The notes beneath the pieces are model-generated. The model was not told the origin of the DNA. It saw only the letters and a list, made by a program, of their open reading frames with translations, and searched no databases. From the NCBI GenBank assembly GCA_029959605.1, contig JASCOC010000006.1, positions 62,001-126,000 on the forward strand: a stretch of 64,000 nt of DNA, read 5' to 3'. Positions within the stretch are counted from its first letter, which is position 1; each line of letters begins with the position of its first letter. Shown here one piece after another: positions 40,075 to 59,583 of the stretch. This DNA is from Lysobacteraceae bacterium PS02340 (GTDB taxonomy: Bacteria; Pseudomonadota; Gammaproteobacteria; Xanthomonadales; Xanthomonadaceae). A program made the translations under genes and the position numbers.

Positions 40075-40628
40075 GCGGCGAACACCGGCAGACGGTCCTG
40101 TGCGATGTCGGCCAGCAACGGTGCGTGGGTGTCCTTGTCGGACAGCAACGGCGCGTCGATCCGCCAGTCGACACCGATTGCGGGATCGTTCCAGCGCACG
40201 CCGGCATCGGCCTCTTTCACGTATACGTCGGTGCACAGGTAGCTGAAGACCGCGCTGTCGGACAGCACCGCGAAACCATGCGCAAAGCCTTCCGGAATCC
40301 AGAACTGGCGCTTGTTCTCCTCGCTCAGGATCACGCCCTCCCACTGCCCGAATGTCGGCGACCCGCGGCGGATGTCGACAGCGACATCGAGCACCTCGCC
40401 GCGCAGCACGCTGACCAGCTTGCCCTGCGGACGCGGCCACTGGTAATGCAGCCCGCGCAGCACGCCCTTGGACGATGACGACACGTTGCTCTGCACGAAG
40501 TTCGTCGGCAGGCCGTGCTGACCGAACCGCTCGGCATTCCAGGTCTCGAAGAAGAAGCCACGCGCGTCGCCGAACACGGCCGGCTCGATGACAACGGCGC
40601 CCGGCAGTTTGGTTTCTATGACCCTCAA
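40071..40628 (-). CDS. rmlC: dTDP-4-dehydrorhamnose 3,5-epimerase (TTG start)
   Basis: A 185-residue cupin epimerase (about the usual 185). The catalytic His is in RGLHYQ (His61), with [16 protein letters not shown] before it and IPEGFAHGF (second conserved His) later. There is no ATG, and the only good initiator is TTG at 40628, which overlaps the rmlA stop (TTGA, 40625-40628) and follows a GGAG site by seven bases. It gives [16 protein letters not shown], matching the usual N-terminus. Part of the rml operon. Confidence 0.93.
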
Positions 40629-41512
40629 CGCACCACTCCACGGTGGACGAGTGACATCAGGTACTGGCCGTAGCCGTTCTTGGACAGCGGCTTGGCGAGC
40701 GCCAACAACTGTTCGGCATCGATCCAGCCGTTGCCGTAAGCGATCTCCTCCGGACAGCACACCTGCAGACCCTGACGATCCTGGATGGTCTGGATGAAAT
40801 TCGAAGCCTCATGCAAGGACTGGTGCGTGCCGGTGTCGAGCCACGCAAATCCGCGACCGAGCTGCTCGAGATACAGCGTGCCTTCGTCGAGATAGCGGCG
40901 ATTGAGATCGGTGATCTCCAGTTCGCCACGCGGTGAAGGTTTCAGCTCGGCGGCGTAGTCACTGGCACGCCCGTCGTAGAAATACAGGCCCGTAACGGCG
41001 TAGTTCGAACGCGGCGTCTCGGGCTTCTCTGCGATATCGATCACCTTGCCGGCGGCATCGAACTCGGCCACGCCATAGCGCTCGGGATCGTTGACCCAGT
41101 AGCCGAAGACGGTCGCACCGTCGCTGCGCGCGTCAGCGCTCTTGAGCGTGTCGGTGAGGCCATGCCCGTGGAAAATGTTGTCGCCCAGCACCAGGCAGCT
41201 CGGCTTCCCAGCCACGAAATCGCGGCCGATCAGATACGCCTGCGCCAGGCCATCCGGACTCGGCTGCACGGCGTACTGGATGTCCATGCCCCACTGCGAA
41301 CCGTCACCGAGCAGGGTCTGGAACAGCACCTGCTCGTGCGGCGTATTGATGATCAGCACCTCACGGATGCCGGCCAGCATCAGCACGCTGAGCGGGTAGT
41401 AGATCATCGGCTTGTCGTACACCGGCAGCAGCTGCTTGCTGACGCCCTTGGTGATCGGATACAGCCGCGTACCGGAGCCGCCGGCGAGGATGATGCCCTT
41501 GCGCGCCGTCAT
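40625..41512 (-). CDS. rmlA: Glucose-1-phosphate thymidylyltransferase
   Basis: A 295-residue nucleotidyltransferase making dTDP-glucose from dTTP and glucose-1-P, the entry to dTDP-rhamnose. Motifs: [35 protein letters not shown] (split: nucleotide loop at 10-20, then [11 protein letters not shown]), [18 protein letters not shown], and the sugar-binding [10 protein letters not shown] and [11 protein letters not shown]. The ATG overlaps the rmlB stop (ATGA). dTDP-rhamnose acts as feedback inhibitor in this family. All essential residues appear intact. Confidence 0.95.
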
Positions 41513-42564
41513 GCCTCAGCTCCCATACGTTCAAGACGGTAACTACCGTCGAGGATGCGCTGTACCCAAGGCTGGTTGTCGAGGTACCAGTCCACTGTTG
41601 CTTCGATACCGGTCTCGAAAGTGTGCTCGGGCTTCCAGCCGAGTTCGCCCTGGAGCTTCGATGCGTCGATTGCATAGCGACGGTCGTGGCCCGGCCGATC
41701 CGTGACGTAGGTGATCTGCGTCGCGCGCGACTGGCCGTCCTCGCGCGGTCGGCGTGCGTCGAGCAGGCGGCAGATCGTCTCGACTACCTCGATGTTCTGA
41801 CGCTCGGAATCTCCACCGACGTTGTAGGTCTCGCCGACGCGACCTTTCTCGAGCACCGTGCGGATCGCGGCGCAGTGGTCGGTCACGAACAACCAGTCAC
41901 GGACCTGCTTGCCATCGCCGTACACCGGCAGCGGCTCGCCGGCCAGCGCCTTGGCGATCACCAGCGGGATGAGCTTTTCCGGGAAGTGGTACGGCCCGTA
42001 GTTGTTCGAGCAGTTGGTGGTGAGCACCGGCAGCCCGTAGGTGTGGTGGAACGCACGCACCAGATGGTCGGACGCGGCCTTGGAGGCCGAGTAAGGCGAG
42101 TTCGGCGCGTAGGGCGTGGTTTCGGAGAACTTGCCGGTCTCCCCCAGTGTGCCGTAGACCTCGTCGGTCGACACATGCAGGAAACGGAACGCCTCGCGAC
42201 GGCTGTCAGGCAAGGCCTTCCAGTAGTCGCGCACCGACTCGAGCAGACCGAGTGTGCCGACGACGTTGGTTTCGATGAACGCGGCCGGGCCGTCGATGGA
42301 ACGGTCGACGTGGCTCTCGGCGGCGAAGTTCAGCACCGCGTCAGGCTGATGCTCGGCCAGCAGCCCCGCGACCAGATCGCGATCCCCGATGTCGCCATGG
42401 ACGAACACATGGTTCGGGTCGGACTCGATCGACGCCAGCGTCTGCAGGTTGCCTGCATAGGTCAGGGCATCGAGATTGATCACGCGGACGCCGCGACGTA
42501 CGGCCTCCAGTACGAAATTGCCGCCGATGAAACCGGCGCCGCCGGTGACGAGCCATGTGGGCAC
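41509..42564 (-). CDS. rmlB: dTDP-glucose 4,6-dehydratase (GTG start)
   Basis: A 351-residue extended short-chain dehydratase with the NAD+ loop GGAGFIGG (residues 8-15), the catalytic DE of STDEVYG (about 132-138), and Tyr158/Lys162 in YSASK. It converts dTDP-glucose to dTDP-4-keto-6-deoxyglucose. That product feeds both the rhamnose branch (RmlC/D) and, by inference, the aminotransferase at 46821. The start is GTG ([12 protein letters not shown]) behind an AGGAG site seven bases upstream. First gene of the rmlBACD operon, divergent from etfBA. Confidence 0.95.
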
Positions 42565-42702
42565 GAGTTCACTCCTGTGGACGATCGGAATACCCCGTAA
42601 GGGGCCAGCTGCCAAGGATACCGGCTCGTCCGGTCGATTTCGGCACGAAGATGAACGCCCTGCTTGCACGCGCAGTTGTTCGCGCGCCGGAGGCTGCGCC
42701 GT

Positions 42703-42774: not shown

Positions 42775-43521
42775 ATGAAGATCCTCGTCGCCTACAAGCG
42801 CGTGGTGGACTACAACGTCCGCATCCAGGTCAAGCCGGACGGGTCCGGCGTGGTCACCGATGGCGTCAAGCTCTCGGCCAACCCGTTCGATGAAATCGCG
42901 CTGGAAGAAGCCCTGCGCCTGCGCGACAAGGGCATCGCCACCGAGGTCGTGGTCGCGACGATCGCGCCCGCCGACGCCCAGGCGCACCTGCGCAACGGTC
43001 TGGCCATGGGCGCGAACCGCGCCATCCACGTGGTCTGTGACGAGGCGATCCAGCCGCTGACGGCCGCCCGCACCCTGCTCAAGCTGGTCGAGAAGGAGCA
43101 GCCGGACCTAGTGATCCTCGGCAAGCAGGCCATTGACGACGACGCCAACCAGACCGGTCAGATGCTGGCGACGCTGTGGGGCCGCCCGCAGGCGACCTTC
43201 GCCTCGAAGGTCGAGATCGCTGACGGCAAGGCCACCGTCACACGCGAAGTCGACGCCGGCCTGGAGACGCTTGAAGTCGACCTGCCGGCCGTCGTCACGA
43301 CCGATCTGCGCCTCAACGAGCCGCGGTTCATCAAGCTGCCCGACATCATGAAGGCGAAGTCGAAGCCGATGGAATCGATCCCGTTCGCCGACCTCGGCGT
43401 CGAGTCGGTCGATACGCTCAAGACCACGCACTACGAGGCGCCGACCAAGCGCGGCAAGGGCGTCATGGTCAAAGACGCGGCCGAACTGGTCGCCGCGCTC
43501 AAGGCCAAGGGCCTGCTCTGA
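42775..43521 (+). CDS. etfB: Electron transfer flavoprotein subunit beta
   Basis: A 248-residue ETF beta subunit. The start MKILVAYKRVVDYNVRIQVK is highly typical; NPFDEIALEEALRLRDKG and the C-terminal part VTTDLRLNEPRFIKLPDIMKAKSKP match the ETF-beta signature. ETF carries electrons from acyl-CoA and other flavin dehydrogenases to the membrane ETF-quinone oxidoreductase. An AAGGA site lies upstream. Cotranscribed with etfA, 69 bases downstream. In Xanthomonas, etfA is one border of the lps locus. Confidence 0.96.
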   Translation: MKILVAYKRVVDYNVRIQVKPDGSGVVTDGVKLSANPFDEIALEEALRLRDKGIATEVVVATIAPADAQAHLRNGLAMGANRAIHVVCDEAIQPLTAARTLLKLVEKEQPDLVILGKQAIDDDANQTGQMLATLWGRPQATFASKVEIADGKATVTREVDAGLETLEVDLPAVVTTDLRLNEPRFIKLPDIMKAKSKPMESIPFADLGVESVDTLKTTHYEAPTKRGKGVMVKDAAELVAALKAKGLL

Positions 43522-43590
43522 ATTCCGTCGCTTCCGCGCGCGCGGGAGCCCAGTGACATCCGGCCCGGGGCCGGATCGCAGGAGAACCTC

Positions 43591-44535
43591 ATGTCCAAAG
43601 TCCTTGTCATCGCCGAACACCTCGACGGCACCCTGAACGCCAGCGCGACCGCCAAGACCGTCGCCGCGGCGCAGGCGCTGTCGCCCGGCGCCATCGACGT
43701 CGCGGTGTTCGCCGCGGACCCGGCGGGCGCCGCCACCGAAGCCGCCACGATCGCGGGCGTCTCGAAGGTGCTCGCCGTCGCCAATCAGGCCAACGCACAG
43801 GCCCTCGCGCAGGTGTTGGGCCCGCAGATCGCCAAGCTTGCCGCCGGCTACAGCCACGTCTTCGCGCCGTCGACGACATTCGGCAAGGACCTGCTGCCGG
43901 TCGTCGCCGCGCTTCTGGGCGTGAACCAGATCTCCGACCTGATGACGGTCGAGAGCAGCCACGTCTTCAAGCGCCCGATCTACGCCGGCAATGCAATCGT
44001 CACTGTCGAGGCCCCAGCCGACCAGCCAGTCGTCGCCACGGTGCGCACCGCGTCCTGGCAGGAAGCGGCACGCGGCGGCAGCGCAACGGTCGAAACCACC
44101 AGCGTCGACGCCCAACTGCCAACGCACACCCGCTTCATCGGTCTCGCCGCAGGCAGCACCGACCGCCCCGACCTGCAGAGCGCCAAGCGCGTTGTCTCGG
44201 GCGGCCGCGGTGTCGGCTCGGAAGAAAACTTCAAGGTCGTTTTCGACTTCGCCGACAAGCTCGGCGCCGCCGTCGGGGCCTCGCGCGCCGCGGTCGATGC
44301 CGGTTATGTACCGAACGAGCTGCAGGTCGGCCAGACCGGCAAGATCATCGCTCCCGAGCTCTACGTTGCGATCGGCATTTCCGGTGCCATCCAGCATCTG
44401 ACCGGCATCAAGGATGCAGGCACGATCGTCGCGATCAACAAGGATGCAGACGCCCCGATCTTCGAAATCGCGGACATCGGCCTGGTGGGCGATCTTTTCA
44501 AGGTGCTGCCGGAGCTGGAAGCGGCACTCCATTAG
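43591..44535 (+). CDS. etfA: Electron transfer flavoprotein subunit alpha
   Basis: A 314-residue ETF alpha subunit. The FAD-binding C-terminal half has [71 protein letters not shown] and [19 protein letters not shown], all diagnostic. The N-terminus [18 protein letters not shown] is regular. An AGGAGAACCTC site precedes the ATG. Immediately after it the base composition drops and the polysaccharide genes begin. Confidence 0.96.
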
Positions 44536-44693: not shown

Positions 44694-45653
44694 ATGCTGA
44701 ACACCGAAGTCATTTCTCCATCTGCGACCCGGATCGACGTTTCGGTCGTCAGCCCTGTTTATGGGTGCAACGGATGCCTTGAAGAGCTTGCTGACCGGAT
44801 AGAAAGGACGCTCAGTCGCTTACCGGTCAGTTTCGAGCTGATCTTGGTCGACGATTCGAGTCCCGACGGTTCGTGGAAACGGATCCGGGAACTTTCCGCG
44901 CAGCGCTCTTGGATCTCGGGCATCCGTTTTTCGCGGAATTTTGGACAGCACGCTGCCATTTCTGCGGGCCTGCTAGCGGCGAAGGGGGATCGCGTCGTTG
45001 TGATGGACTGCGACCTGCAGGATCGTCCTGAGGAGATTCCTACATTGCTTGCGAGCGTGACCGGGTCCACTGAGGTTGCCCTTGCGCAGCGTATCGAACG
45101 TCGGGACAACGCTTTCAAACGGTTTGGGTCCTGGGCTTTCTACCGATTCCTCGGGTGGTTGACTGGCACCGCCTACGATCACACCACCGCAAATTTTGGC
45201 GCATACAGCCGACGCGCGGTGAATGCGGTCAATGCCATGCCCGAATCTGAGCGCTTTTTCCCACTTCTGATGAAATGGAACGGATTCGCGACAGTGAAGG
45301 TGCCGATCGTGCACGACGCGCGATCCCATGGCCAAAGTGGCTATAGTTTCCGAAAGCTGCTGAAACTCGCAGCCAATATCGCGCTGTCATTTTCTGACAA
45401 GCCACTTCGACTCGTCGTCATTGCAGCTCTCTTGAGTGCCGCAGTGGCGCTGTTGATTGCGGCTTTTAGCGTGTCCCGCTACTTCGCCGGTGATATACGA
45501 ATTGCCGGCTTCACCAGCGTCGTCGCATCGATCTGGCTAGTAGGCAGCGCGACACTCGGCAGCATTGGTGTGCTGGGGCTCTACATCGGACGTATCTTTA
45601 CCGGGGTGAAGGGCAGGCCCGCATTCGTGGTCGGCGAGCGCACCGATGACTGA
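44694..45653 (+). CDS. Family 2 glycosyltransferase with C-terminal membrane anchors (polyprenyl-phosphate sugar synthase type)
   Basis: A 319-residue protein like GtrB/DPM1/ArnC. The GT-A domain has SVVSPVYGCNGCLEEL, ILVDDSSPDGSW (residues 50-61), SRNFGQHAAISAGL and the metal site DCDLQD (105-110). Two membrane segments lie at about 238-260 and 272-297. Such enzymes move a sugar from a nucleotide donor to undecaprenyl phosphate on the cytoplasmic face. Context suggests an amino-deoxy sugar as cargo. The start is uncertain: ATG at 44694 is used, with an earlier ATG at 44604. Its stop overlaps the next gene by eight bases. Codon usage is less GC-rich than in flanking genes. Confidence 0.88.
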   Translation: MLNTEVISPSATRIDVSVVSPVYGCNGCLEELADRIERTLSRLPVSFELILVDDSSPDGSWKRIRELSAQRSWISGIRFSRNFGQHAAISAGLLAAKGDRVVVMDCDLQDRPEEIPTLLASVTGSTEVALAQRIERRDNAFKRFGSWAFYRFLGWLTGTAYDHTTANFGAYSRRAVNAVNAMPESERFFPLLMKWNGFATVKVPIVHDARSHGQSGYSFRKLLKLAANIALSFSDKPLRLVVIAALLSAAVALLIAAFSVSRYFAGDIRIAGFTSVVASIWLVGSATLGSIGVLGLYIGRIFTGVKGRPAFVVGERTDD

Positions 45654-46434
45654 AAAAGTCGTGACGTTGTCAGAATCTGACACAGCCAGATTTGGGATGC
45701 GCATCGCACGCGCACGCTTTGATCACGACACCGGGCACCGCGAGGTGATCAAAGGTTTCGACGATTTGGCGGTCGATCTCTTAGTCCTGCGTCTCCCGGC
45801 AGGCTCTCATCAGGCACCGCGAGCGCTTGCAGAGGCTGGGTTCCGGGTGATTCACGCGGACACGCTGGTCTATTACCAGACGTCGTTGTCTAGTTGGGTG
45901 CACGGGAAGAACTGGTGTGGGGAAGCATCTTTTTCCCGGGTCACATCGGCGGATGTGGAAGGAGTCCAGGCTGTAGCACGAAACAGCTTTCGAGGCTATC
46001 GAAGTCATTATCAGGCCACGCCATCGCTCGACGCGGATCTGGTTTCGGAAGGATATGCGGAATGGGCGGCGCGCTACGCTTCCACCTCAAGCGAAGATCG
46101 ACTTACGTACGTGGTCCGCTCGGGCGGAGTTGTCGTGGGATTCGTGGCGTCCAGCCTTGATAAGGCTACCCGGGTATGCGACGTGGTCCTCAATGCAGTC
46201 GTGCCAGAACATGAGGGTCGCGGACTGTATCGTGAAGCCCTGGGGCGAGTCATGACCGAAGCGCGATCCGAAGGTTTCCAGACCGGCACGATTTCGACGC
46301 AGATATGGAATTATCGCGTCCAGCGGGTTTGGACGAGATGTGGCATGCACCTTACGCACGCCTACGACACCTATCACGTGTCCCGCTCGGCGCAGCACAC
46401 TGCCGCGGACAAGCAGAGTCGACCTCAAGAATGA
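45646..46434 (+). CDS. WecD-like GNAT acetyltransferase (candidate dTDP-amino-sugar N-acetyltransferase)
   Basis: A 262-residue protein with a degenerate N-terminal GNAT-like part (FGMRIARARF ... RALAEAGFRVIHADTLVYYQ) and a C-terminal GNAT fold with the acetyl-CoA loop VVPEHEGRGLYREAL. The layout follows E. coli WecD (dTDP-fucosamine acetyltransferase): FFG-type start, 'LxxLGF' helix, an SFRGYRSHYQ segment corresponding to SRFRAPWY, and a C-terminal WNYRVQRVWTRCGM strand-helix. Together with the RffA-type aminotransferase two genes on, it probably N-acetylates a dTDP-4-amino-4,6-dideoxyhexose. It overlaps both neighbours. The relation to WecD is my reading by eye. Confidence 0.72.
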   Translation: MTEKVVTLSESDTARFGMRIARARFDHDTGHREVIKGFDDLAVDLLVLRLPAGSHQAPRALAEAGFRVIHADTLVYYQTSLSSWVHGKNWCGEASFSRVTSADVEGVQAVARNSFRGYRSHYQATPSLDADLVSEGYAEWAARYASTSSEDRLTYVVRSGGVVVGFVASSLDKATRVCDVVLNAVVPEHEGRGLYREALGRVMTEARSEGFQTGTISTQIWNYRVQRVWTRCGMHLTHAYDTYHVSRSAQHTAADKQSRPQE

Positions 46435-46796
46435 GCTACTTCTTCATCGCGATGACGATTGCGCTGACTGTGTATGGACAGCTGATCCTGAAATGGCGCG
46501 TCGGTGTGTTCATGAGCTCCGTGGCACCGCCTTACACAATCACCCACGGGATCATGCTCCTGCTCAACCCATGGGTCATTTCGGCTTTCGCCGCAGCATT
46601 CGGCGCGTCACTGTTCTGGATGGCTGCTATCAGTCGCTTGCCCATCAGCAAGGCCTACCCGTTCATGGCCTTGAACTTCGTCTTCGTCATGGCCTTCGCG
46701 GCGGTGATCTTCAACGAGAGCCTCAATCATTACAAGTTGGTCGGCACCGCGATCATTATTGTTGGCGTGCTGGTCCTGTCTCGATCGCCTGCCTGA
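46431..46796 (+). CDS. Small EamA/SMR-type membrane protein, candidate lipid-linked sugar flippase
   Basis: A 121-residue protein with four hydrophobic segments (MSYFFIAMTIALTVYGQLIL; ISAFAAAFGASLFWMAAIS; KAYPFMALNFVFVMAFAAVIF; LVGTAIIIVGVLVLSRS), the size and style of ArnE/ArnF and other half-size EamA transporters. LPISKAYPFMALNFV is a typical family stretch. Such proteins flip undecaprenyl-phosphate-linked sugars to the periplasm, usually as pairs or dimers. The ATG overlaps the stop of the acetyltransferase (ATGA), so the genes are coupled. It occupies the place that GtrA has in gtr operons. Confidence 0.82.
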   Translation: MSYFFIAMTIALTVYGQLILKWRVGVFMSSVAPPYTITHGIMLLLNPWVISAFAAAFGASLFWMAAISRLPISKAYPFMALNFVFVMAFAAVIFNESLNHYKLVGTAIIIVGVLVLSRSPA

Positions 46797-46820
46797 CCTT
46801 CTTTAGCACATGGAGTTCCA

Positions 46821-47948
46821 GTGATTCCCTTCAACAAGCCGTATATGACCGGGCGCGAGCTTGCTTACATTGCACAGGCGCACGGAAATGGACATCTGAG
46901 TGGCGATGGCCCTTTCACCAAACGTTGCCATGCGTGGTTGGAAGCGCGCACCGGTGCGAAGAAAGCCCTCCTCACGCACTCGTGCACGGCAGCTTTGGAA
47001 ATGGCGGCGCTGCTGCTCGATATCGAGCCCGGCGATGAAGTCATCATGCCGTCCTTCACCTTCGTTTCCACCGCAAACGCTTTTGTCCTGCGTGGCGCGA
47101 CTGTGGTCTTCGTCGATGTGCGGCGGGATACGCTCAACATCGATGAGTCTTTGATCGAAGCCGCGATCACGTCCCGGACGCGAGCGATATGTGTGGTTCA
47201 TTACGCGGGTGTTTCCTGCGAGATGGATGCGATCCTTAAGATCGGCGCAGCACATGATCTTCCGGTAGTAGAGGATGCAGCACAGGGCATCATGTCGACA
47301 TATCGCGGGGCGCCGCTCGGAACGATCGGTGAACTGGGCGCTTTCAGTTTTCACGAAACAAAAAACATCATTTCTGGTGAAGGTGGCGCACTGCTGTGCA
47401 GAGACGCAACTTATGCAGAGCGTGCAGAAATCATCCGTGAGAAGGGGACGAACCGCAGTAAGTTCTTCCGGGGCCAGGTCGACAAGTACTCCTGGGTCGA
47501 CGCGGGCTCATCCTATCTCCCGGGAGAAATCACGGCTGCGTTTCTCGCCGGACAGATGGACGATGCAGTGGCGATCACCCAGCGCCGCCTTGCGCTTTGG
47601 GATCGCTACCACACTCATTTCGAATCCGCAGAAACCCAAGGAACGCTACGCAGACCAGTTGTACCGGCACACTGCGAGCATAACGCTCACATGTATTATC
47701 TATTGCTGCCGGACCTCGAGGCGCGAACCAGTTTCATTGCGCGGATGAAGGCGCTTTCAGTTCAGACCGTTTTCCATTACATCCCGCTGCACGGTGCACC
47801 GGCCGGCCTGAAATACGGCCGCTGCGGAAGTGGGATGTCGGTTACCGAGGATATAAGCGATCGACTCGTCAGGCTTCCGCTGTGGGTGGGGCTCGAAGAG
47901 CACATCGACCAAGTCCTCGAAGCCTGTGACCGTAGCCTGAGTGTTTGA
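46821..47948 (+). CDS. dTDP-4-amino-4,6-dideoxygalactose transaminase, RffA/WecE type
   Basis: A 375-residue DegT/DnrJ/EryC1 aminotransferase. The PLP lysine is Lys181 in FSFHETKNIISGEGGALL; other motifs are IPFNKPYMTGRELAYIAQA, HLSGDGPFTKRCHAWLE and SSYLPGEITAAFLAGQ, which match RffA/WecE closely. It would use dTDP-4-keto-6-deoxyglucose, the RmlB product, to make dTDP-Fuc4N (4-amino-4,6-dideoxy-D-galactose). Start is GTG at 46821 with GGAG upstream. The DegT family is broad, but the HETKN motif and length favour this subgroup. Confidence 0.88.
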   Translation: MIPFNKPYMTGRELAYIAQAHGNGHLSGDGPFTKRCHAWLEARTGAKKALLTHSCTAALEMAALLLDIEPGDEVIMPSFTFVSTANAFVLRGATVVFVDVRRDTLNIDESLIEAAITSRTRAICVVHYAGVSCEMDAILKIGAAHDLPVVEDAAQGIMSTYRGAPLGTIGELGAFSFHETKNIISGEGGALLCRDATYAERAEIIREKGTNRSKFFRGQVDKYSWVDAGSSYLPGEITAAFLAGQMDDAVAITQRRLALWDRYHTHFESAETQGTLRRPVVPAHCEHNAHMYYLLLPDLEARTSFIARMKALSVQTVFHYIPLHGAPAGLKYGRCGSGMSVTEDISDRLVRLPLWVGLEEHIDQVLEACDRSLSV

Positions 47949-47952
47949 CACG

Positions 47953-50031
47953 ATGCGATTTGCCGCTAGGTGGCCCTGGGTTACGGATTTCGCGAATCAG
48001 ATCGATCGGACTTCCCGTCCGAGACTGATCGATCTGAGCATCTGGTTGATTGCCTTGTTGAGCCTGATCGGCTTGGCATTGATGCCGAAATCCGAAGTGT
48101 TCCAGATCCAGGTAGAAGCCACTTCCGCGGGAGAGCTGCAGCTCTTCTTCGACCAGGGAGCTGGATTCTCGGAGACCCTCTCGTCCACTCGCACATTTGG
48201 GTCGGGGACACAAACGCTCGAATTTCCGCTGCCTGCAGGCGAAAGCAATCGGATCAGACTGGACCCCTCGCCCGGCACCGACGAGATCGTTCTGCATCGC
48301 ATCGGATCGAGTGCAAGCGAATTACCGGTTCCGTTCGACAATCTGTCTCAAGCGCATGAAGTGGCCTCTGTACTCGTTACCGACGCCTCAGCAAGGGTGC
48401 GCATGCAGGATGGCGCAGTGGACCCACAATTGCTGATTCATCTCGACCAACCGCTTGGCACGGACAGCGGGGCTGCAACCGCAAGAGACCTTCTGTGGCA
48501 GATATTTTTGGCCTGCAGCGTCATGCTTGTAGTCCGGAACCTCAATCTCCCACAAATCTCCTCGCTGGTTTTCGTTTCGGTGGCGATCACACTTGTGGTT
48601 GTAATGGCATTACTGTCTCCGCTTGTGCCCTCTCCACATCCCGACGAGTTCCTTCATGTTGCAGATGCGCAGCACTTCGGCACCCACTGGCTGCCTCCTT
48701 CCCTAGGCAGCGGCGAGCTTGCGCCCAGCTACACCAACAATGTCTACGGCGTCTCCTATCTATACGAATGGAATATCGTCTATTGGTTCGCAGGCAAGGC
48801 GGGCAGCCTCGCGTCCACAATCGGTCTCGATCCTGCTTTGGCCTACCGCCTGTTCAATGCAGGCCTCATGGGTCTGGTCGCCTTGACGATCGTCTGGGCT
48901 CGCCTGCCCTTTACAACCCTCGCCGTTCTGCTTGTGACACCCCAGCTCTGGTACGTCTTCGCATACTTCAATGGCGATGCGTTCCCGCTCGCAATGGCCT
49001 GCATCGCAGTTGCCTTCGCAAGCTCACGTAGCGGCCCCGTGCAGACGTATATCAGCACCGGCGGGCGCTTTCCTGCCCAAGCGGTTCTTTTTGCAATCGC
49101 CATGGCGATGCTGCTCATCTCCAAAAAGAACTTCCTGCCTGCCGCAGTATTCGCAAGCCTATGGCTGTGCGCGAGCTGCCTTCGATTGCGGACGACGATG
49201 GCGTCCGCCGCCGTTGCCGCCTTTGGTATCTGTGTGTGCGTGGCTACCGCTGGACCCGCCCTCGAAGCCGAGTTCGGCCTTCGGTGGCAGATTCCCGCGC
49301 TCATCCTGTTTGTAACTGGCGTAGTACTGGGTGCGCGATGGTTTTACGAAGAATGGTTCGTTGATTATTCCAGGCGTCCCGCGCTGATCCGGTTTGCGTA
49401 TTTGCACTTGATCGTGGTTATCATCGCGCTCCCTTGGATCGGCGCAGATATTCTCCAGAATGGAACCGGTGCGACCAAGGCTCAGTTGGTGACCGAGCTC
49501 CGTGAGCAACACGCGGCGTATCCTTTCAAACCATCGACGATCATCAATCTGCCCGAGCAGAGTCAACCGGGCCTGCAGCTCGCAGCCAAGGATGTCGGCC
49601 TCGCAGATACTCTGCGTGCGCCGTATAGCTGGATACGGGGCTCTTTCCAGAGCTTCTTCTCGGCTTACGGTTACATGAAGTTCTACGGCTCAGGCTGGCT
49701 TTATGCGCTCTTCGGAACCTCGCTCGGATTATTAGTGTTGATAGGAGCGATTTCCGGCCTGAGAGGGGGAGCCTTTGGACTTCGTCACCTGGCGCTCATA
49801 TTCGGTTGCTCCTCGGTCGTAATCGTCGCAGCCGCACTTCATAGCTGGACTTACGACTTTCAACCCCAGGGTCGATACGTCTTCGGCATACTGCCCATGC
49901 TGATGCCGTTATTCGCTGCGGAACCGGTGCGACGGGGCGCCATGAAAGGTGCTTTTCAAGCAGCCCTTCTGACAGCAGTAGCGCTGTCCACTTATTCATT
50001 TATCCAGATTGGGCTCGCCAACCTCGTCTGA
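47953..50031 (+). CDS. DUF2142-like polytopic membrane protein, candidate GT-C glycosyltransferase
   Basis: A protein of about 692 residues. One membrane segment (LIDLSIWLIALLSLIGLAL) is followed by a periplasmic beta-rich domain of about 140 residues (FQIQVEATSAGELQLFFDQ ... RIRLDPSPGTDEI), then about eleven more hydrophobic segments. The first loop of that part has SPLVPSPHPDEFLHVADAQHFG, whose PDE acidic motif fits the DUF2142/GT-C pattern where an Asp or Glu acts in catalysis. It is probably the periplasmic transferase that uses a lipid-linked sugar. The start is ambiguous (GTG 47941 or ATG 47953). It ends 31 bases from a convergent gene. Confidence 0.72.
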   Translation: MRFAARWPWVTDFANQIDRTSRPRLIDLSIWLIALLSLIGLALMPKSEVFQIQVEATSAGELQLFFDQGAGFSETLSSTRTFGSGTQTLEFPLPAGESNRIRLDPSPGTDEIVLHRIGSSASELPVPFDNLSQAHEVASVLVTDASARVRMQDGAVDPQLLIHLDQPLGTDSGAATARDLLWQIFLACSVMLVVRNLNLPQISSLVFVSVAITLVVVMALLSPLVPSPHPDEFLHVADAQHFGTHWLPPSLGSGELAPSYTNNVYGVSYLYEWNIVYWFAGKAGSLASTIGLDPALAYRLFNAGLMGLVALTIVWARLPFTTLAVLLVTPQLWYVFAYFNGDAFPLAMACIAVAFASSRSGPVQTYISTGGRFPAQAVLFAIAMAMLLISKKNFLPAAVFASLWLCASCLRLRTTMASAAVAAFGICVCVATAGPALEAEFGLRWQIPALILFVTGVVLGARWFYEEWFVDYSRRPALIRFAYLHLIVVIIALPWIGADILQNGTGATKAQLVTELREQHAAYPFKPSTIINLPEQSQPGLQLAAKDVGLADTLRAPYSWIRGSFQSFFSAYGYMKFYGSGWLYALFGTSLGLLVLIGAISGLRGGAFGLRHLALIFGCSSVVIVAAALHSWTYDFQPQGRYVFGILPMLMPLFAAEPVRRGAMKGAFQAALLTAVALSTYSFIQIGLANLV

Positions 50032-50062: not shown

Positions 50063-51289
50063 TCAAAGGTAGCTGCCGCCTTGCAACAACTTGACGAAAT
50101 AGTAGAGGCCGCTGCCCAAATGCCCGGCGAGCAGCATCCATCCGAAACCGCGGATGATCCTCCCCCCTGCTGGCCTGAACAAGAACATCTCGATTGCGGC
50201 GAGAAACATGAAGTACATGCTAGACAGATATCCCCAGCTGAAATTCGCATGGGTGAATCTGAAGCCCTTTTCTGCAAGAAAATAGTAGATGAGGGTCGCG
50301 ATAATGAAGTTCATCAGGGCCACCGTCATGAGCGGGGTAATTCCGCTTCGGTATACACCCACGATGTAAAGTGGGAATGCCATGCCAGCCAGAATGGACA
50401 GCGGGATATTCGCCGAATAAAGCTTCCACACCGAACCCCAAGTCAAGATGACCCCACCCTCTTGCGACGCGCCACCGTAAACCGCTGCCTCAATCGTCAT
50501 CAAAGGCAGCAGCGCGGGTAGCAGTGCCAAACCAACTGCAACTGTGTATTTCAATGAAAGCCGCGTCGATGATGCGGATTTCCACAGAAAGAAGACAGCC
50601 ACCGCGGGGAGAAGAGACATCAGAAACGACGGTTTCGCCCACATCGACAGAATCGCGACTGCCGCAATCGCTACGAGCCTTCGCACGGAATGCTGTTTCG
50701 CCAGCCCGTCGAAGTAAGCGCCAAGCACCAGAAACAGCACCGCAATCGAGAACGGTCTCGCGAAGATGTAGGTCGGGTTATGCCAAGGGTTCGGCGTTCC
50801 AATGCCGATATAGAGACTTTCCGTGTCTCCAGGTACGACGAACATCGAAACGATGGAAAGAACGAGCGGTGCCAAACCCGCCAACCAAGGAAAGTGTGAC
50901 GCGTACCTGTTGAAATAGCTCACCAGCAGTACCGATGTTGCGACCATCGATACAACTAGAAGCAGTGTCATGGCTGTGACGTAGCTCTCCAGACCAGTAC
51001 CGCTGCCAAACCATCCCGCGACAGTCACCATCGCGTTGAGGACGACATGCAGCAACGAGTATGCGCTGCCTGGTGCTTCGACTTCGCCTAGAGCATATGC
51101 GGCATGGGCACGTGTATCAGCAGGAAAAACACCGGCTCCCTGCTGATGGAAGAGATAAGCACTCGCCGACCACAGCACAATATGGCATAGACCGAAGAAA
51201 ACCAGGGGATCAGCTCTGAGCAACAGGGGCACACGCTGAGCACTCGGTATATACGCCCCCTTCACAAGTTTCGTCACTTCGCCCCCCAT
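50063..51289 (-). CDS. Polytopic membrane protein of the lps locus
   Basis: A 408-residue protein with about ten hydrophobic segments (for example PLVFFGLCHIVLWSASAYLF, SYVTAMTLLLVVSMVATSVLLV, LVAIAAVAILSMWAKPSFLMSLLPAVAVFF). A periplasmic loop after the first segment (QQGAGVFPADTRAHAAYALGE) with an Asp, and the PNPWHNPTYIFARPFS motif, recall GT-C type transferases, but I do not recognise the family. It ends the minus-strand transcript that begins with wzm. A GTG at 51355 overlapping the upstream stop would give 430 residues; the ATG at 51289 was chosen because GGAAAACC precedes it. GC is lower than average here. Confidence 0.7.
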   Translation of the reverse strand: MGGEVTKLVKGAYIPSAQRVPLLLRADPLVFFGLCHIVLWSASAYLFHQQGAGVFPADTRAHAAYALGEVEAPGSAYSLLHVVLNAMVTVAGWFGSGTGLESYVTAMTLLLVVSMVATSVLLVSYFNRYASHFPWLAGLAPLVLSIVSMFVVPGDTESLYIGIGTPNPWHNPTYIFARPFSIAVLFLVLGAYFDGLAKQHSVRRLVAIAAVAILSMWAKPSFLMSLLPAVAVFFLWKSASSTRLSLKYTVAVGLALLPALLPLMTIEAAVYGGASQEGGVILTWGSVWKLYSANIPLSILAGMAFPLYIVGVYRSGITPLMTVALMNFIIATLIYYFLAEKGFRFTHANFSWGYLSSMYFMFLAAIEMFLFRPAGGRIIRGFGWMLLAGHLGSGLYYFVKLLQGGSYL

Positions 51290-51351
51290 GGTTTTCCGGT
51301 TCAAATGCTCGCGATCAGCGATATGCCTGGCAGCAATCCTGGTATCCGGTC

Positions 51352-53610
51352 TCACCCGCGTGGCGGATACGCAAGAGAGAAAGGCGCACTAGTTAAAGTG
51401 AAATTCGGATTGTAGTAAGGGTCTTTCTCCAGAAGATCACCCCACCGGTCCTTCATCAAAGCCTCCTCTCGCATGAACCTCGCGATCTTTTCCGGAGTGT
51501 TTTCGTAACCCCGCGATGCGGATTCGTAATGATAGAGCTCTGCAAAGGGTGTCCAGAGGTTGCGATACCCTGCCTCGCGCACTCGGATACAAAGATCCAC
51601 GTCGTTGAAAGCGACGACCAGTGTCTCGTCAAGCCCTCCCACCTCTTCGAATACGGACCTCCGCAACAGAGCGCATGCCGCAGTGACCGCACTCAGCGAC
51701 TGCACCAGACCCGCGCGATGCTTGTCCCCTGGGTATCCCCGCGGCATGCCGACATAGGAATGCCCCGCTACGCCACCGATACCCAGCACCACGCCTGCGT
51801 GCTGGATCGTATCGTTGGGGTAGTACAGCATCGCACCGACCACACCGATCTCGGTGCGATTCGCGTGGGACACCATTTCAGTCAACCATTCCGGACTGAT
51901 GACCTCGATGTCGTTATTGAGCAGCCCGATGATTTCGCCTTGAGTGCTGGACGCTCCGAAATTGTTGATCTTCGAGTAATTGAACGGCGCGTCGTAACGA
52001 AGCACCCGGACATTCGAATGGTCTCTCAGCTCTCGAAAATACGCGATCGTTTCCTTCTCTACCGACCCGTTGTCGAGAATTACGACTTCATAGTTTCGGT
52101 AGGTCGTACGTTCCAAGATGGAATCCACACACTGTCGCAACAGGTCGACACGGTCTCGTGTCGGGATGAGCAAACTGACCCTTGGCTGCGGCTCTGGAAT
52201 CTCATGGGCAATATGATAGTAACCGCTGTATCCGGGCATCTCTTCGACTTTGGCAGGTGTGCCGGTGCGGTCGAAATGATCCTGGATGGCGCGCAGAGCG
52301 GCGAAGTGCGCATAGCTCTTTTCACCCGGCGCCAGCGCGGTTGATCCTTCGATCATTCGCCAGTGATACAGCACCTTGGGTACATGGCCGATCTGGTCAG
52401 ACAGGAGAGCTTCGCTGGCGCGCAGTGCAAGATCCCAATCCTGGGCCCCGTCGAATCCTTCACGGAATCCTCCGATTTCCTCGATCAGCGCGCGCTCGTA
52501 AACTCCAAGGTGGCAAACGCAGTTCTGCGACTGGAACAGATCAGGATTCCAGTCCGACTTGAAGTATGGATCGCTGCGATGGCCCTCGGTGTCGATCTTG
52601 TCCTCGTCGGTGAACAGCATCCGCCACTGTGGATTCTGCTCGAGCGCAATGGCACACCAGGCAAGCGCAAGCGGATGCAGCGCGTCGTCGTGATCGAGCA
52701 ATGCAATGTGAGTACCCGTGGCCAGCGCCAAGGCGCTGTTCGAGGCAGCGGCGATGTGCCCATTGGTGTCTCGCCGGACCGCCCTGATTCTTGAATCTGC
52801 TGCAGCAAGACTTTGGATCAACGCCCATACCTGCGGATCCGGAGATGCATCGTCCGCGATGCAAAGCTCCCAATGCGGATAGCTCTGCGCTTGCACGCTT
52901 TCGATGCATGCACGCAGCCACTTGGGGTCTGTGTTGTAAGTCGGCACGACGATCGAAAAGCGAATGGCGTCGCCGACGACCGGCATCGTCTCCAGCGTCA
53001 GCGCGATGCCCTCATCGGTACAGTCGTCGTAGAAGTCGACCCAGACCTGATAGTCGGAAACGCCCGTCGTCGCTACTTCGGCGGCATACGCGCGATATAG
53101 ACGATCGGCCATATGCCTCGGCCCACGGAACACATCGAGGGCGACGTCACGCAGCAACGAGACGCGATCCGCCCCTGCGCCTCGAGACCAGAGAGCATTG
53201 AACATCGTACGCGCTGCATCCAACTTCCCGATCCTCTCGAGCGAGAACGCGAGCACACGGAACTCGCAGGGAATCAAGGTCGGATCGAAGCGCAGAACCG
53301 TCACATCTGCGACAAATCGCACCAGTCGACGCACCCGATGCCTGCCCGCACGCGCATCGATCAGCGGAATCGACAGGCGATCGGCCTCGAGCACGTATCC
53401 TCTCGAGTAATCTGGATACAGCACAGGGCCGTGGATACGTCCGCGGAATACTTCAAATTCCAGCTCGACGATGTACCAACCGCCCACCAGCCCGCTCTCG
53501 GGAAGCTGGACTTCGAAGTAGGGATCATTGCCAGAGGCACGCCATCGGGACTGGGCGCCATCGCCATCCAGGCGGTCAAGCTGCTGTATCGGACTCAGCT
53601 TTGCATTCAT
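51352..53610 (-). CDS. Large tandem GT2 glycosyltransferase with N-terminal beta module
   Basis: A 752-residue protein. Residues about 22-128 are a beta-rich module (GNDPYFEVQLPESG, WYIVELEFEVF, LRFDPTLIPCEFRVLAFSL) also found in the next two upstream proteins. A helical part follows, then two GT-A domains: about 217-420 (SIVVPTYNTDPKWL, ADDASPD, LLDHDDAL at 304-311) and about 477-700 (SLLIPTRDRVDLL, ILDNGS, LLNNDIEV at 563-570, FNDVDLCIRVREAGYRN). Both carry acidic metal-binding motifs, so it may add two sugars in alternation. No membrane segments. Its start overlaps the upstream gene by 35 bases. Acceptor and donor are unknown. Confidence 0.88.
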   Translation of the reverse strand: MNAKLSPIQQLDRLDGDGAQSRWRASGNDPYFEVQLPESGLVGGWYIVELEFEVFRGRIHGPVLYPDYSRGYVLEADRLSIPLIDARAGRHRVRRLVRFVADVTVLRFDPTLIPCEFRVLAFSLERIGKLDAARTMFNALWSRGAGADRVSLLRDVALDVFRGPRHMADRLYRAYAAEVATTGVSDYQVWVDFYDDCTDEGIALTLETMPVVGDAIRFSIVVPTYNTDPKWLRACIESVQAQSYPHWELCIADDASPDPQVWALIQSLAAADSRIRAVRRDTNGHIAAASNSALALATGTHIALLDHDDALHPLALAWCAIALEQNPQWRMLFTDEDKIDTEGHRSDPYFKSDWNPDLFQSQNCVCHLGVYERALIEEIGGFREGFDGAQDWDLALRASEALLSDQIGHVPKVLYHWRMIEGSTALAPGEKSYAHFAALRAIQDHFDRTGTPAKVEEMPGYSGYYHIAHEIPEPQPRVSLLIPTRDRVDLLRQCVDSILERTTYRNYEVVILDNGSVEKETIAYFRELRDHSNVRVLRYDAPFNYSKINNFGASSTQGEIIGLLNNDIEVISPEWLTEMVSHANRTEIGVVGAMLYYPNDTIQHAGVVLGIGGVAGHSYVGMPRGYPGDKHRAGLVQSLSAVTAACALLRRSVFEEVGGLDETLVVAFNDVDLCIRVREAGYRNLWTPFAELYHYESASRGYENTPEKIARFMREEALMKDRWGDLLEKDPYYNPNFTLTSAPFSLAYPPRG

Positions 53611-55792
53611 TGCAACGGTCAACCTGCGTACTGGCCCGCGCCGCAGAAGCGGCCGCCCGGGCGGGGTCGATCGAAAACGCACGACCGAAAAGGGAAAGGT
53701 TGGGATTGTAGGCGGGATCACTGACGAGCACGTCAGCCCATCGGGCTTTCATCAATTCGACTTCGCCCGCAAATCGTGCACGCTTTTCGGGGCTGTCTTC
53801 GTGGCCGCGACTCGCCGATTCATGATGGTACATCCAGACCCAGGGCAGCCACAGATTGCGATAGCCCGCCTCGCCGACGCGAAGGCAGAAATCCACGTCG
53901 TTGAAGGCGACCGCCAGATCAGGATCCAAGCCGCCGACTTCATCAAAAACGCTGCGTCGGACGGCCAGACATGCCGCCGTGACCGCCGACATCCGCTGGG
54001 CGGCCAATGCGCGCCCGAACTGTCCCGTGTGGGACCGTGGAAATCCGGGATACGCGTGCGCCGCGACCCCTTCCACGCCGAGTATCACGCCGGCATGCTG
54101 AAGGCTTCCATCCGGATAGAGAAGCTTGGCGCCGACGGCGCCGATTTCGGAACGGCATGCATGAACCGCGAGTTCCCGCAGCCAGGCACCATCGGCGATT
54201 TCGATGTCGTTGTTGAGCAGGACGACGACGTCAGCGGTGGACGTTGCCACCGCGCGATTGTTGAGTGCCGAATAGTTGAACGGGGATTCGTCGCGGATTA
54301 CGCGGATCCGTCCGTCTTCGCGCAGATGATCCAGATACGCAAGAGTTCCAGCCTCAACCGAACCGTTGTCGACCACCACGATTCCGTAATCCACGCCAGT
54401 GGTAAGCGCGAGGATGCTGTCTACGCAGACCGAAAGAAGCTCCAGCCGGTCGCGCGTCGGAATGATGATGTCGCAGCGAACGTCCTTCGGAAGTTCATAA
54501 GTTGGGCGTGGCAACTCGGATTCCATCGAAACCTCCACACCGCTCGCACCCAGTGGCCGTAACCGCGCAAGTGCGCCGGCGACCTCCGCGACCGAAGCGC
54601 CTCCCGTCCGCAAAGGGCGATGCACCGGCCCGGGTCCTGAAAGATGGCGGCGCGCCTGGACCGGCAGGTGCAGGATCGCCACATTCCCCACAAGCTTCGC
54701 GACGCGAAGTGGCAGGACATGCGCCCACCCGCCACCATCTCCAGCTACATCCGGCCGAATCTGCCTCAGCAGGTCCACACGATAAAAAGAAGATGGGCCG
54801 ACGAAGTCGTGCTGGGCCTGAAGGTCGGGATCCCAAGCAGGCTTGAAATACGGAGAAAGCGCGTTGCCTGCGATGTCCGAGAAATCTTCGTCCGTGTAGA
54901 GCGCAGCGACATTTTCTGCGTCGGCCAGAGCTTCACAGATGCTCTGGAGACCGCTTTGCGATATCCGCTCGTCGGCGGATATCCATCCGATGTAGCGGCC
55001 GCGTGCCTGGTTCAACCCGGGTGCGATCGCAGGCGCCATCGGCGGAAGCAATTGCACGCCGGGTACATCGGCGAGCGCCGCCGATGCGGGCAGGATAAGC
55101 TCGACACCTGGCACAAGCTGCTCGGCGAGCGCACGTGCTGCGGCGCGCAGCGCGCTCGTGCCCGCAGCGGGCAACAGGACGAGCGTAACGATCGTGGACT
55201 GTGGCAGTACTGCGCGCTCCGGTCTGGTTGCCGGCGTCGTTGCCTCGCTCGATGCCGACATCCAGTCTCTGTACGCGATCCGCGCACTGCCCGCGTCCTG
55301 AATTCGATAGGCGGGCCAGAGATGTTCAGCACGGATCTCGGCCGATTCGCCGGACGTGGCTGCCTGCGCCGAGCGAACTCCAGAAAGCGCGCGCCACATT
55401 CGCCACACAGCCTCGCTGGGCGGCACGGCTTCGAAGCGGATACTGCCGAGCGAGAAGCGGCCCGGTCGCGTGCTAGGGTCCAGTCGCACGTGTCGCAGCG
55501 TGTCCCTGACGCGGACGATCGCATCGACCCCGCCCGTATCGTCCAGATCGAGATCCTGACGTTCGGACTCGCGCAGGCCTGCCCCGCAATCCAGATAAAG
55601 GCTGGGAAGCGAAACGCGCCCGTCGATGGGCATGCGCAGGCGGTACCAGCCAGGTGGAAGCTGTGGGGCAAGCGCGAACACAAGGTGTGGGTCGTGTCCT
55701 TCGCTGACAAGCGCCCTGTCTTCGAGCTGCATTTGCGAGCTCGCGACCAACGTCCATCCTGAAGGAACATCGAACGCTTCAGCTTCAATCAT
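53576..55792 (-). CDS. Second large GT2 glycosyltransferase with N-terminal beta module
   Basis: A 738-residue paralogue of the neighbouring glycosyltransferase. The beta module (about 22-122) has EGHDPHLVFALAPQL, GWYRLRMPI and HVRLDPSTRPGRFSLGSIRF. The first GT-A-like domain (about 200-385) looks degenerate: where the neighbour has LLDHDDA, this one has GWISADERIS, although LYTDEDFSD is kept. The second GT-A domain (about 438-660) is intact, with DIIIPTRDRLELL, VVDNGSVE, LLNNDIEIAD and FNDVDFCLRVGEAGYRN. It probably has one active site. Its start overlaps the methyltransferase stop by eight bases. It lies in the wzm-wzt operon. Confidence 0.86.
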   Translation of the reverse strand: MIEAEAFDVPSGWTLVASSQMQLEDRALVSEGHDPHLVFALAPQLPPGWYRLRMPIDGRVSLPSLYLDCGAGLRESERQDLDLDDTGGVDAIVRVRDTLRHVRLDPSTRPGRFSLGSIRFEAVPPSEAVWRMWRALSGVRSAQAATSGESAEIRAEHLWPAYRIQDAGSARIAYRDWMSASSEATTPATRPERAVLPQSTIVTLVLLPAAGTSALRAAARALAEQLVPGVELILPASAALADVPGVQLLPPMAPAIAPGLNQARGRYIGWISADERISQSGLQSICEALADAENVAALYTDEDFSDIAGNALSPYFKPAWDPDLQAQHDFVGPSSFYRVDLLRQIRPDVAGDGGGWAHVLPLRVAKLVGNVAILHLPVQARRHLSGPGPVHRPLRTGGASVAEVAGALARLRPLGASGVEVSMESELPRPTYELPKDVRCDIIIPTRDRLELLSVCVDSILALTTGVDYGIVVVDNGSVEAGTLAYLDHLREDGRIRVIRDESPFNYSALNNRAVATSTADVVVLLNNDIEIADGAWLRELAVHACRSEIGAVGAKLLYPDGSLQHAGVILGVEGVAAHAYPGFPRSHTGQFGRALAAQRMSAVTAACLAVRRSVFDEVGGLDPDLAVAFNDVDFCLRVGEAGYRNLWLPWVWMYHHESASRGHEDSPEKRARFAGEVELMKARWADVLVSDPAYNPNLSLFGRAFSIDPARAAASAARASTQVDRCNECKAESDTAA

Positions 55793-58759: not shown

Positions 58760-59582
58760 CGGCGAACCCTCGACGAGTCTTCTGGAACACCGCGAACGCG
58801 AGGTAGGCAAACGCCATAGCCCCTGCCAGGTACATTATCAAGCCATACCAGTCTGGTAGCCGTCCCCAGAAAGCGACTTCCCGCACTTGATCGATGATGA
58901 ATGTCAACGGATTCAGCCGGAAGACCGCCTGATAATTTTCAGGGAGCGTTCGCACGGGAATGATCGCAGAAGACAGGAACAGCAGCGCGGTCGCCAGTAC
59001 GCCGGTGATCTGGGCGATATCGCGCAAGAACACGCTCAGCGATGACAGCAGCCAGATCGTTCCCAGTGCCACGAAGGCCAGCGGCGCCAGTACCAACGGC
59101 CAGAACACGAGCGTCCAGTGGATCTCGCCCCGCAGCAGAAAGTTGAGCAGAACGAAAACCACCATGTTGGTCATCGCGTGAAAAAGCGCGGAGAGCACGA
59201 CCGTCCACGGCAGCACTTCCAACGGAAACACGATTTTCTTGACAAGATTGACGTTGCCGGAGATCAGGGTCGGCGCCCGGGTCAGGCACTCTGCAAAGAA
59301 GCCATGCGTCAGGAGCCCAAGGAACAGCAGCATGGCGAAGTCCGCCGTATTCCCCGTAGTCCCGGGCCAACGCGCCTTGAGGATGTAACCGAACGCGAGT
59401 GTGTAGACGATCAGCATGAGGAACGGGCTGATCAATGACCACAACAGCCCGAAGCTCGCACCGCGATAACGCCCGAGAATGTCGCGACGCGAGAGCTCGA
59501 TCGTCAGCGAGCGATGCTTGATCCATGCGCTGAAAGGCCCGCCAATCGAGAACAGCGGGGTGGGTGACATGCTGGTACGCAT
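58749..59582 (-). CDS. wzm: O-antigen ABC transporter permease
   Basis: A 277-residue ABC-2 type permease with six hydrophobic segments. The N-terminal RDILGRYRGASFGLLWSLISPFLMLIVYTL is diagnostic for polysaccharide exporters (RYRxSxLGxxWxxxxP), and the C-terminal LNPLTFIIDQVREVAFWG is the other family signature. With Wzt it exports lipid-linked O-antigen across the inner membrane. The ATG at 59582 lies one base after the metB stop; MSPTPLF at 59570 is an alternative. First gene of the minus-strand lps operon; metB is just upstream in the same direction, so transcripts may join. Confidence 0.94.
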   Translation of the reverse strand: MRTSMSPTPLFSIGGPFSAWIKHRSLTIELSRRDILGRYRGASFGLLWSLISPFLMLIVYTLAFGYILKARWPGTTGNTADFAMLLFLGLLTHGFFAECLTRAPTLISGNVNLVKKIVFPLEVLPWTVVLSALFHAMTNMVVFVLLNFLLRGEIHWTLVFWPLVLAPLAFVALGTIWLLSSLSVFLRDIAQITGVLATALLFLSSAIIPVRTLPENYQAVFRLNPLTFIIDQVREVAFWGRLPDWYGLIMYLAGAMAFAYLAFAVFQKTRRGFADVL

Positions 59583-59583
59583 G

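Follow-up and report, generated by a model that had tools for sequence, protein, structure and literature searches.

We consider a stretch of 64,000 nucleotides from Lysobacteraceae bacterium PS02340 (contig JASCOC010000006.1; the window), in which five consecutive genes quite probably form a cassette for the decoration of a glycan in the periplasm: 4-amino-4,6-dideoxygalactose (Fuc4N) would be made, N-acylated, loaded onto a lipid, flipped and placed as a side branch on a polysaccharide exported by Wzm/Wzt. The cassette itself is real and there is good support for its route; it is a known kind of system with a new combination of parts, whose relatives follow an unexpectedly regular modular pattern. 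All five open reading frames (ORFs) are open on the plus strand between 44694 and 50031, and their ends overlap or nearly touch, as an earlier reading of the letters alone (the sequence-only reading) had described:

44694-45653, plus strand: family 2 glycosyltransferase (GT2), predicted polyprenyl-phosphate N-acyl-Fuc4N transferase of the GtrB/ArnC type (family and PDB matches)
45646-46434, plus strand: WecD-like GNAT, predicted to transfer an acyl group, probably acetyl, to the nitrogen of dTDP-Fuc4N; 8 bp overlap with GT2 (PRK10975, PDB profile search)
46431-46796, plus strand: half-size EamA protein, predicted ArnE/ArnF-like flippase of the lipid-linked amino sugar; 4 bp overlap with GNAT (Pfam EamA)
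46821-47948, plus strand: WecE/RffA-type dTDP-4-keto-6-deoxyglucose aminotransferase, as assigned by curated models; GTG start, 24 bp gap after EamA
47941-50031, plus strand: GT-C-like membrane glycosyltransferase of 696 residues; GTG start, 8 bp overlap with WecE (alignment, AlphaFold2 model, Foldseek)

In the proposed route, RmlA and RmlB would provide dTDP-4-keto-6-deoxyglucose, which WecE would aminate to dTDP-Fuc4N. The GNAT would N-acylate this product, most likely with acetyl, and the GT2 would load the N-acyl sugar onto undecaprenyl phosphate at the cytoplasmic face of the membrane. The EamA protein, probably as a dimer, would then flip the lipid-linked sugar, and the GT-C-like protein would add it in the periplasm to the exported polysaccharide. 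The protein families, the gene order, the recurrence and the GT-C-like model are computed results, from which we infer the substrates, the acyl group, the flipping and the acceptor. We favour this reading because of the identity of WecE, the relations of the other proteins to WecD, GtrB/ArnC and ArnE/ArnF, the GT-C model, the recurrence in 45 of 50 loci, the co-variation of GT2 with the acyl genes, the precedent of the Xanthomonas wxc cluster and the lack of a WecF match.

From sugar supply to transfer

The predicted source of dTDP-4-keto-6-deoxyglucose for the cassette is the pair RmlA (TIGR01207, 508.1 bits with a cut-off of 360.65) and RmlB (TIGR01181, 506.5 bits with a cut-off of 365.1). 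The 46821 product lies above both curated WecE cut-offs (PRK11706, 596.5 bits against 375; TIGR02379, 590.5 bits against 434.85) and matches Pfam DegT with 284.5 bits, and its best matches in PDB are the WecE structures 6blg (470.3 bits) and 4piw (464.3 bits). By these family models the gene is a WecE/RffA-type aminotransferase. It is the one strong WecE copy in its own genome, where the second match has just 19.9 bits.

The GT2 matches Pfam Glycos_transf_2 (76.7 bits), and over nearly the full length of its 319 residues it matches GtrB sll0501 (5ekp, 158.9 bits, residues 10-315) and ArnC (9hwj, 148.7 bits, residues 16-313), from which a polyprenyl-phosphate GT2 of the GtrB/ArnC type is predicted; with 166.2 bits it lies below the ArnC equivalog cut-off of 529. 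The EamA protein, of about 120 residues and scored from 46425 on, two residues longer at its N-terminus, matches Pfam EamA with 38.8 bits (gathering score 28.2). It is nearest to ArnF (PRK02971, 47.5 bits) and then to ArnE (PRK15051, 41.1 bits), a relation from which its flippase role is predicted.

The 45646 product matches Pfam Acetyltransf_1 (35.7 bits) and the WecD model PRK10975 (31.8 bits, residues 11-238 on positions 12-224 of 232). We aligned it with 23 of the 24 members of its cluster (A4, 24 sequences); all 24 match PRK10975 and 20 match wecD_rffC. When the A4 profile is searched against the PDB, the WecD structure 2fs5 comes first (32.9 bits, E 3.8e-7) and a polyamine acetyltransferase second (31.7 bits). 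A WecD-like role is likely for this protein, with acetyl as the simplest guess for the acyl group.

The 696-residue protein has by sequence no match in Pfam, NCBIfam or PDB, and none to DUF2142 (PF09913) at E 0.001. An alignment of the protein with five relatives (A1) was searched against genome contigs and gave 46 loci (L109-L154; L and G numbers denote loci and genomes), and proteins from 32 of these 46 entered an alignment of 33 sequences (A3), in which P234, D235, E236 and H239 are invariant (PDExxH, 234-239). An N-terminal beta domain, at about residues 53-174, lies ahead of this motif. The AlphaFold2 model of the protein (mean pLDDT 87.1, pTM 0.82) has EmbB as its best PDB match in Foldseek (E 3.8e-4). 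Among the best 50 of 460 matches at E<=10, 16 have a probability of at least 0.87, namely 13 GT-C enzymes, two carbohydrate-binding modules and one chain of the MmpL5 complex; the 13 GT-C enzymes are EmbB, AftA, ArnT, ALG9, ALG12 and protein O-mannosyltransferases (PMTs). The modelled fold, the Foldseek matches and the invariant D235 and E236 point to a GT-C-like protein whose similarity is weak by TM-score.

Four A3 members were scanned against Pfam: L133 matches PMT (22.9, cut-off 22.7), L113 comes close to DUF2142 (29.8, cut-off 30.1) and two have no match. Compared by hhalign with a set of four proteins that includes two matching DUF2142, A1 gives 98.5% over 195 columns in the N-terminal part only. 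The GT-C of the window is scarce in the family, as four of 198 genomes match, one of them its own and the other three covering N-terminal residues only, and its closer relatives are found beside WecE genes. Because WecE is not seen in 35 of the 46 loci with GT-C relatives, many of them short stretches, we take the GT-C family not to be tied to this sugar. The relatives L109-L154 often occur in sulfate reducers and methanotrophs.

The sequence-only reading had named the polyprenyl-phosphate GT2, the RffA/WecE-type aminotransferase, the ArnE/F-like half-size EamA transporter in place of GtrA and the supply by RmlA and RmlB, and had asked for a GT-C fold in the large membrane protein; these parts are supported by the matches above, and the membrane protein does model as GT-C-like.

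Recurrence in the family and exchange of modules

WecE lies above its cut-off in 54 of 395 genomes of the family, the own genome included, and in 21 of 54 genera. We read 50 of the 54 loci (excluding those of the own genome, G235, G269 and G329) and five more, to which the GNAT had led, in other families of the order, 55 in total. The gene finder misses genes, so presence counts are lower bounds; in L102 tblastn recovered a GNAT together with LuxC, and in L083 GT2, GNAT and EamA. Clusters were set by a phmmer threshold, and different clusters may be distantly akin.

A GT2 and an EamA gene lie upstream of WecE, on the same strand, in 45 of the 50 family loci, and because of this the association of the three genes is more than chance. 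A combination unique to this genome is ruled out by these loci of its relatives. The WecD-like GNAT is present in 20 of the 50, and at least 21 include, within stretches that reach only about 7 kb, a gene that we take to be etfA (etfA, etfB, metB and FdtB are labels read from the sequence rather than from family searches). A search for the five-gene order in other genomes, as the sequence-only reading had suggested, finds the complete arrangement of etfBA, GT2, GNAT, EamA and WecE with a relative of the window GT-C in L091, alone among the 55; it is the core of GT2, EamA and WecE that recurs.

Between GT2 and EamA the modules interchange: a GNAT, a GNAT-MaoC fusion, a GNAT with LuxC/LuxE, WbqC, or sulfotransferases. 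Upstream of WecE elsewhere there are WbqC (16 of 50 loci), a second GNAT type (five), short-chain dehydrogenase/reductase (SDR), AMP-binding and LuxE genes (seven each) and LuxC (six), besides sulfotransferases of two clusters (three and three), hexapeptide transferases and methyltransferases. Downstream, a large membrane protein stands within three genes of WecE in 39 of the 50, and its sequences form 13 clusters. MaoC-like domains handle 3-hydroxyacyl and enoyl thioesters, and the fusion suggests N-(3-hydroxyacyl) sugars in the strains that carry it. Carriers of the MaoC-like hot-dog domain, listed by eye, are L061, L072, L073, L095, L096, L097, L100 and L106.

The type of GT2 follows the type of module. 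Similarity to the window GT2 is 0.95-1.46 bits per residue in all 28 loci with a GNAT, and in the remaining 24 (three of the 55 have no called GT2) it is 0.29-0.53 in 23 and 1.18 in L102, an outlier that does carry a GNAT by tblastn. WecE scores barely differ between GNAT and other loci (median 1.66 against 1.60; p 0.027 by rank test, kinship ignored), and EamA scores are somewhat different (110.5 against 90.3; p 0.0015, kinship again ignored) but overlap much. The GT2 subclass changes with the acyl module while WecE stays nearly constant. The GT2 likely recognises the N-substituent, and therefore acylation would precede lipid loading; alternatively, adjacent GT2 and acyl genes may be exchanged as one block, which would also explain their co-variation.

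With slightly better than even confidence we read these loci as a modular decoration platform, in which a core of WecE and half-size EamA would make and flip Fuc4N donors, an N-substituent module with its matching GT2 would be plugged in, and the GT-C would be swapped independently, giving different coats from one chromosomal site. The modules would be a plain GNAT, GNAT-MaoC, GNAT with LuxC/LuxE and acyl activation, WbqC with a hexapeptide transferase, and sulfotransferase sets.

In Stenotrophomonas maltophilia LMG 978 (L109) one strand carries etfBA, GT2, GNAT, SDR, AMP, LuxE, LuxC, EamA, WecE and a GT-C relative, and the opposite strand Wzt, Wzm and metB. The cassettes at L109:2843-8316, L110:2927-8400 and L102:1127-6539 contain LuxE and LuxC, of the fatty-acid reductase type, alongside AMP-binding, SDR and GNAT genes. 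L055, L057, L059, L062, L064, L066 and L098 each have two distinct half-size membrane genes, one of cluster 18 and one of cluster 16, which resemble an ArnE/ArnF pair; a cluster-18 protein matches EamA weakly, and six of these seven loci have a sulfotransferase gene. A small methyltransferase (cluster 10, such as L067:6378-6998), which may methylate the sugar, is found beside WecE in 14 loci, upstream in 12 and mostly between EamA and WecE.

Known systems and alternative readings

The sequence-only reading had known of no described unit with this exact combination, and here it has to be corrected: the route of aminating, acylating, loading, flipping and transferring is supported gene by gene, but Xanthomonas wxcKLMNO, which makes up region 3 of the O-antigen cluster wxc, is the same kind of cassette at the same site. 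Both have five consecutive genes near rmlB, on the etfA side, for an aminotransferase, a glycosyltransferase, an acetyltransferase or isomerase, and a small and a large membrane protein. They differ in gene order and in that wxcKLMNO has 3-amino-sugar enzymes (a transaminase and WxcM) where the cassette has WecE and the WecD-like GNAT. X. campestris B100 mutants of wxcK and wxcN are described to have lost the FucNAc branches of the rhamnan O-antigen (PMC4878081), the X. hortorum genes wxcK, wxcL, wxcM, wxcN and wxcO have consecutive locus tags shortly after rmlB (PMC12573098), and other strains have a different large protein in place of wxcO (PMC2238763). By its gene content the cassette is a variant of this Xanthomonas system with a new combination of parts.

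FdtA (PF05523) has no match in the own genome and is found in 25 of 149 family genomes, from 19 of which 20 regions were read. Several loci, L157, L163 and L164 among them, have etfBA, an aminotransferase, a GT2, at least one gene for a modifying enzyme (in L163 a single FdtA/hexapeptide gene) and then a small and a large membrane protein. The small protein of FdtA loci is a GtrA in all five tested, and the large one matches GtrII in one of two tested. Of the 55 WecE genes, 51 have an EamA gene on their own strand at a distance of up to 6 kb (in L077 together with GtrA) and four have none; near 22 presumed FdtB-type genes we find GtrA at ten, EamA at none and neither at 12. Since L087 and L161 represent one FdtB-type locus, GtrA stands at nine of 21 distinct ones. 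The small membrane protein is EamA in the cassette and GtrA in the loci comparable to wxc, where WxcN itself may by analogy be a GtrA.

Other systems share some of these parts. The Arn pathway (ArnB, ArnC, ArnE/ArnF, ArnT) also has a 4-amino sugar, an ArnC-like GT2, a half-size EamA of the ArnE/ArnF kind and a GT-C; the cassette differs in that WecE takes the place of ArnB, that EamA is a single gene instead of a pair, and that the predicted acceptor is a glycan instead of lipid A. Two more are described in PMC11127046. Three-component Gtr systems for O-antigen glucosylation likewise use a polyprenyl-phosphate sugar synthase, a small candidate flippase and a variable GT-C, but they move glucose and have GtrA, while the cassette has its own amino-sugar supply and EamA (PMC11127046); by the GtrA criterion the cassette is not such a system, as its small membrane gene is an EamA. 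The GT136 pentofuranose systems (Citrobacter youngae), also three-component, share side chains added after polymerisation, a lipid-linked donor, a small transporter similar to ArnE and a GT-C, and differ in a donor derived from phosphoribosyl pyrophosphate and in the GT-C family (PMC11127046). A variant of the common polysaccharide antigen (CPA) locus of Pseudomonas syringae, with dapH, a glycosyltransferase, 'wecE', rfbA/B/C and an ABC transporter, has an amino-sugar transaminase, an acetyltransferase and a glycosyltransferase beside an ABC exporter, but the transaminase is annotated as the dTDP-3-amino-3,6-dideoxy type, and EamA is mentioned nowhere in the text of that paper (PMC12608077). 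No description of a cassette of WecE, EamA and GT-C was found in the open-access literature searched, outside which most subscription papers lie.

Several observations weigh against the decoration reading. EmbB is the only one among the best 50 of the 460 Foldseek matches with E below 0.001, and the TM-scores of the GT-C matches are low, about 0.2-0.3 by query length; a large membrane protein is not called within three genes downstream of WecE in 11 of the 50 loci. The EamA protein is under the cut-offs for ArnE proper (92) and ArnF proper (99), and its sequence has no match in the PDB. The GNAT is no WecD equivalog (31.8 bits with a cut-off of 219, and 21.7 with 195.1), and its single-sequence structure prediction (pLDDT 40.3) was unusable and set aside. 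Its earlier naming as a WecD-like acetyltransferase stands in the profile search, by a preference of about 1 bit over the polyamine acetyltransferase, and fails in the single-sequence search of the PDB, which returns four GNATs with the IAA acetyltransferase on top (E 0.00099) and WecD not among them. For the wxc precedent, polar effects in the wxcK and wxcN mutants may be a further explanation (PMC4878081). Finally, a MaoC domain is matched in eight of the 24 A4 members, which suggests other acyl groups in some of them.

This last point bears on the alternative that the pathway is the same but the acyl group is a 3-hydroxyacyl or other short acyl rather than acetyl, which overlaps with the decoration reading, since that leaves the acyl open. 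We regard it as possible, though rather unlikely: related GNATs are joined in other cassettes to AMP-binding, SDR, LuxE and LuxC genes and the window GNAT is just a distant relative of WecD, but the MaoC part, by eye a C-terminal extension, is lacking in the window GNAT, and no acyl-supply gene lies between its GT2 and EamA. GT-C enzymes serve many acceptors, and with this breadth and the protein O-mannosyltransferases among the fold matches one may think of an acceptor other than the lipopolysaccharide (LPS) polysaccharide, be it a protein, for instance a pilin, or a different glycan of the envelope. We hold this to be unlikely, as the locus also has Wzm/Wzt and glycosyltransferase genes, and the Xanthomonas counterpart affects O-antigen branches (PMC4878081). 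The stereochemistry of the aminotransferase product is not proven by its sequence family, so that the sugar might be Qui4N (gluco) rather than Fuc4N (galacto) with all else alike; this is improbable given the distance between the WecE matches and those to ArnB, the next family in PDB (158.5 bits), perosamine synthetase (146.8 bits) and QdtB (132.2 bits), and the 203 bits for ArnB in NCBIfam. Least probable by far is a pathway like that of enterobacterial common antigen (ECA), with Fuc4NAc inside the repeat unit: WecE and WecD, whose relatives the cassette has and whose models bear these names, also serve ECA synthesis, but here the genes for the sugar are grouped with those for a polyprenyl-phosphate GT2, the EamA protein and the GT-C-like protein, and we reject ECA membership for want of a WecF (PF07429) match in the own genome, in a search whose E. 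coli control was positive.

The surrounding locus and its meaning

Around the cassette, the window holds the following genes:

40625-41512, minus strand: rmlA (TIGR01207)
41509-42669, minus strand: rmlB (TIGR01181)
42775-44535, plus strand: presumed etfB and etfA, which mark one end of the LPS locus (ORFs)
50063-57410, minus strand: convergent genes for a 430-residue membrane protein, two large GT2 proteins and a methyltransferase, probable makers of the acceptor glycan
57407-59645, minus strand: Wzt (with Wzt_C domain) and Wzm, ABC exporter (Pfam matches)
59584-60759, minus strand: presumed metB-type gene, the other border of the LPS locus (ORF)

The exporter genes match Wzt_C (105.2 bits), ABC_tran (84.5 bits) and ABC2_membrane (82.0 bits). 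Genes of the etfBA type also adjoin cassettes in relatives, and a metB-type gene stands beside Wzm in L109 and L110. The LPS locus of xanthomonads is bordered by etfA and metB (PMC2238763), and the layout of the window is this arrangement. From about 0.65 upstream, G+C falls to about 0.57 across the cassette, in line with horizontal exchange. The 430-residue membrane protein (50063-51355, minus strand), which converges on the cassette, has no match in Pfam or NCBIfam and is perhaps another membrane glycosyltransferase. The methyltransferase that adjoins Wzt (55785-57410, minus strand; Methyltransf_24) has a long C-terminal part and could serve to end the chain and to gauge its length.

Taken over the family, including Stenotrophomonas, these loci suggest a rule by which genes could predict the side-branch sugars that the variable etfA-metB locus for polysaccharide gives in Xanthomonadaceae: each aminotransferase class is paired with a flippase class and each GT2 subclass with an N-substituent module, and the GT-C is free to vary. 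The parts of this rule would bear on the difference in cargo between the small flippase candidates EamA and GtrA. The counterpart genes wxcK and wxcO of X. hortorum are both required for the adsorption of a phage, to which their mutants are resistant (PMC12573098).

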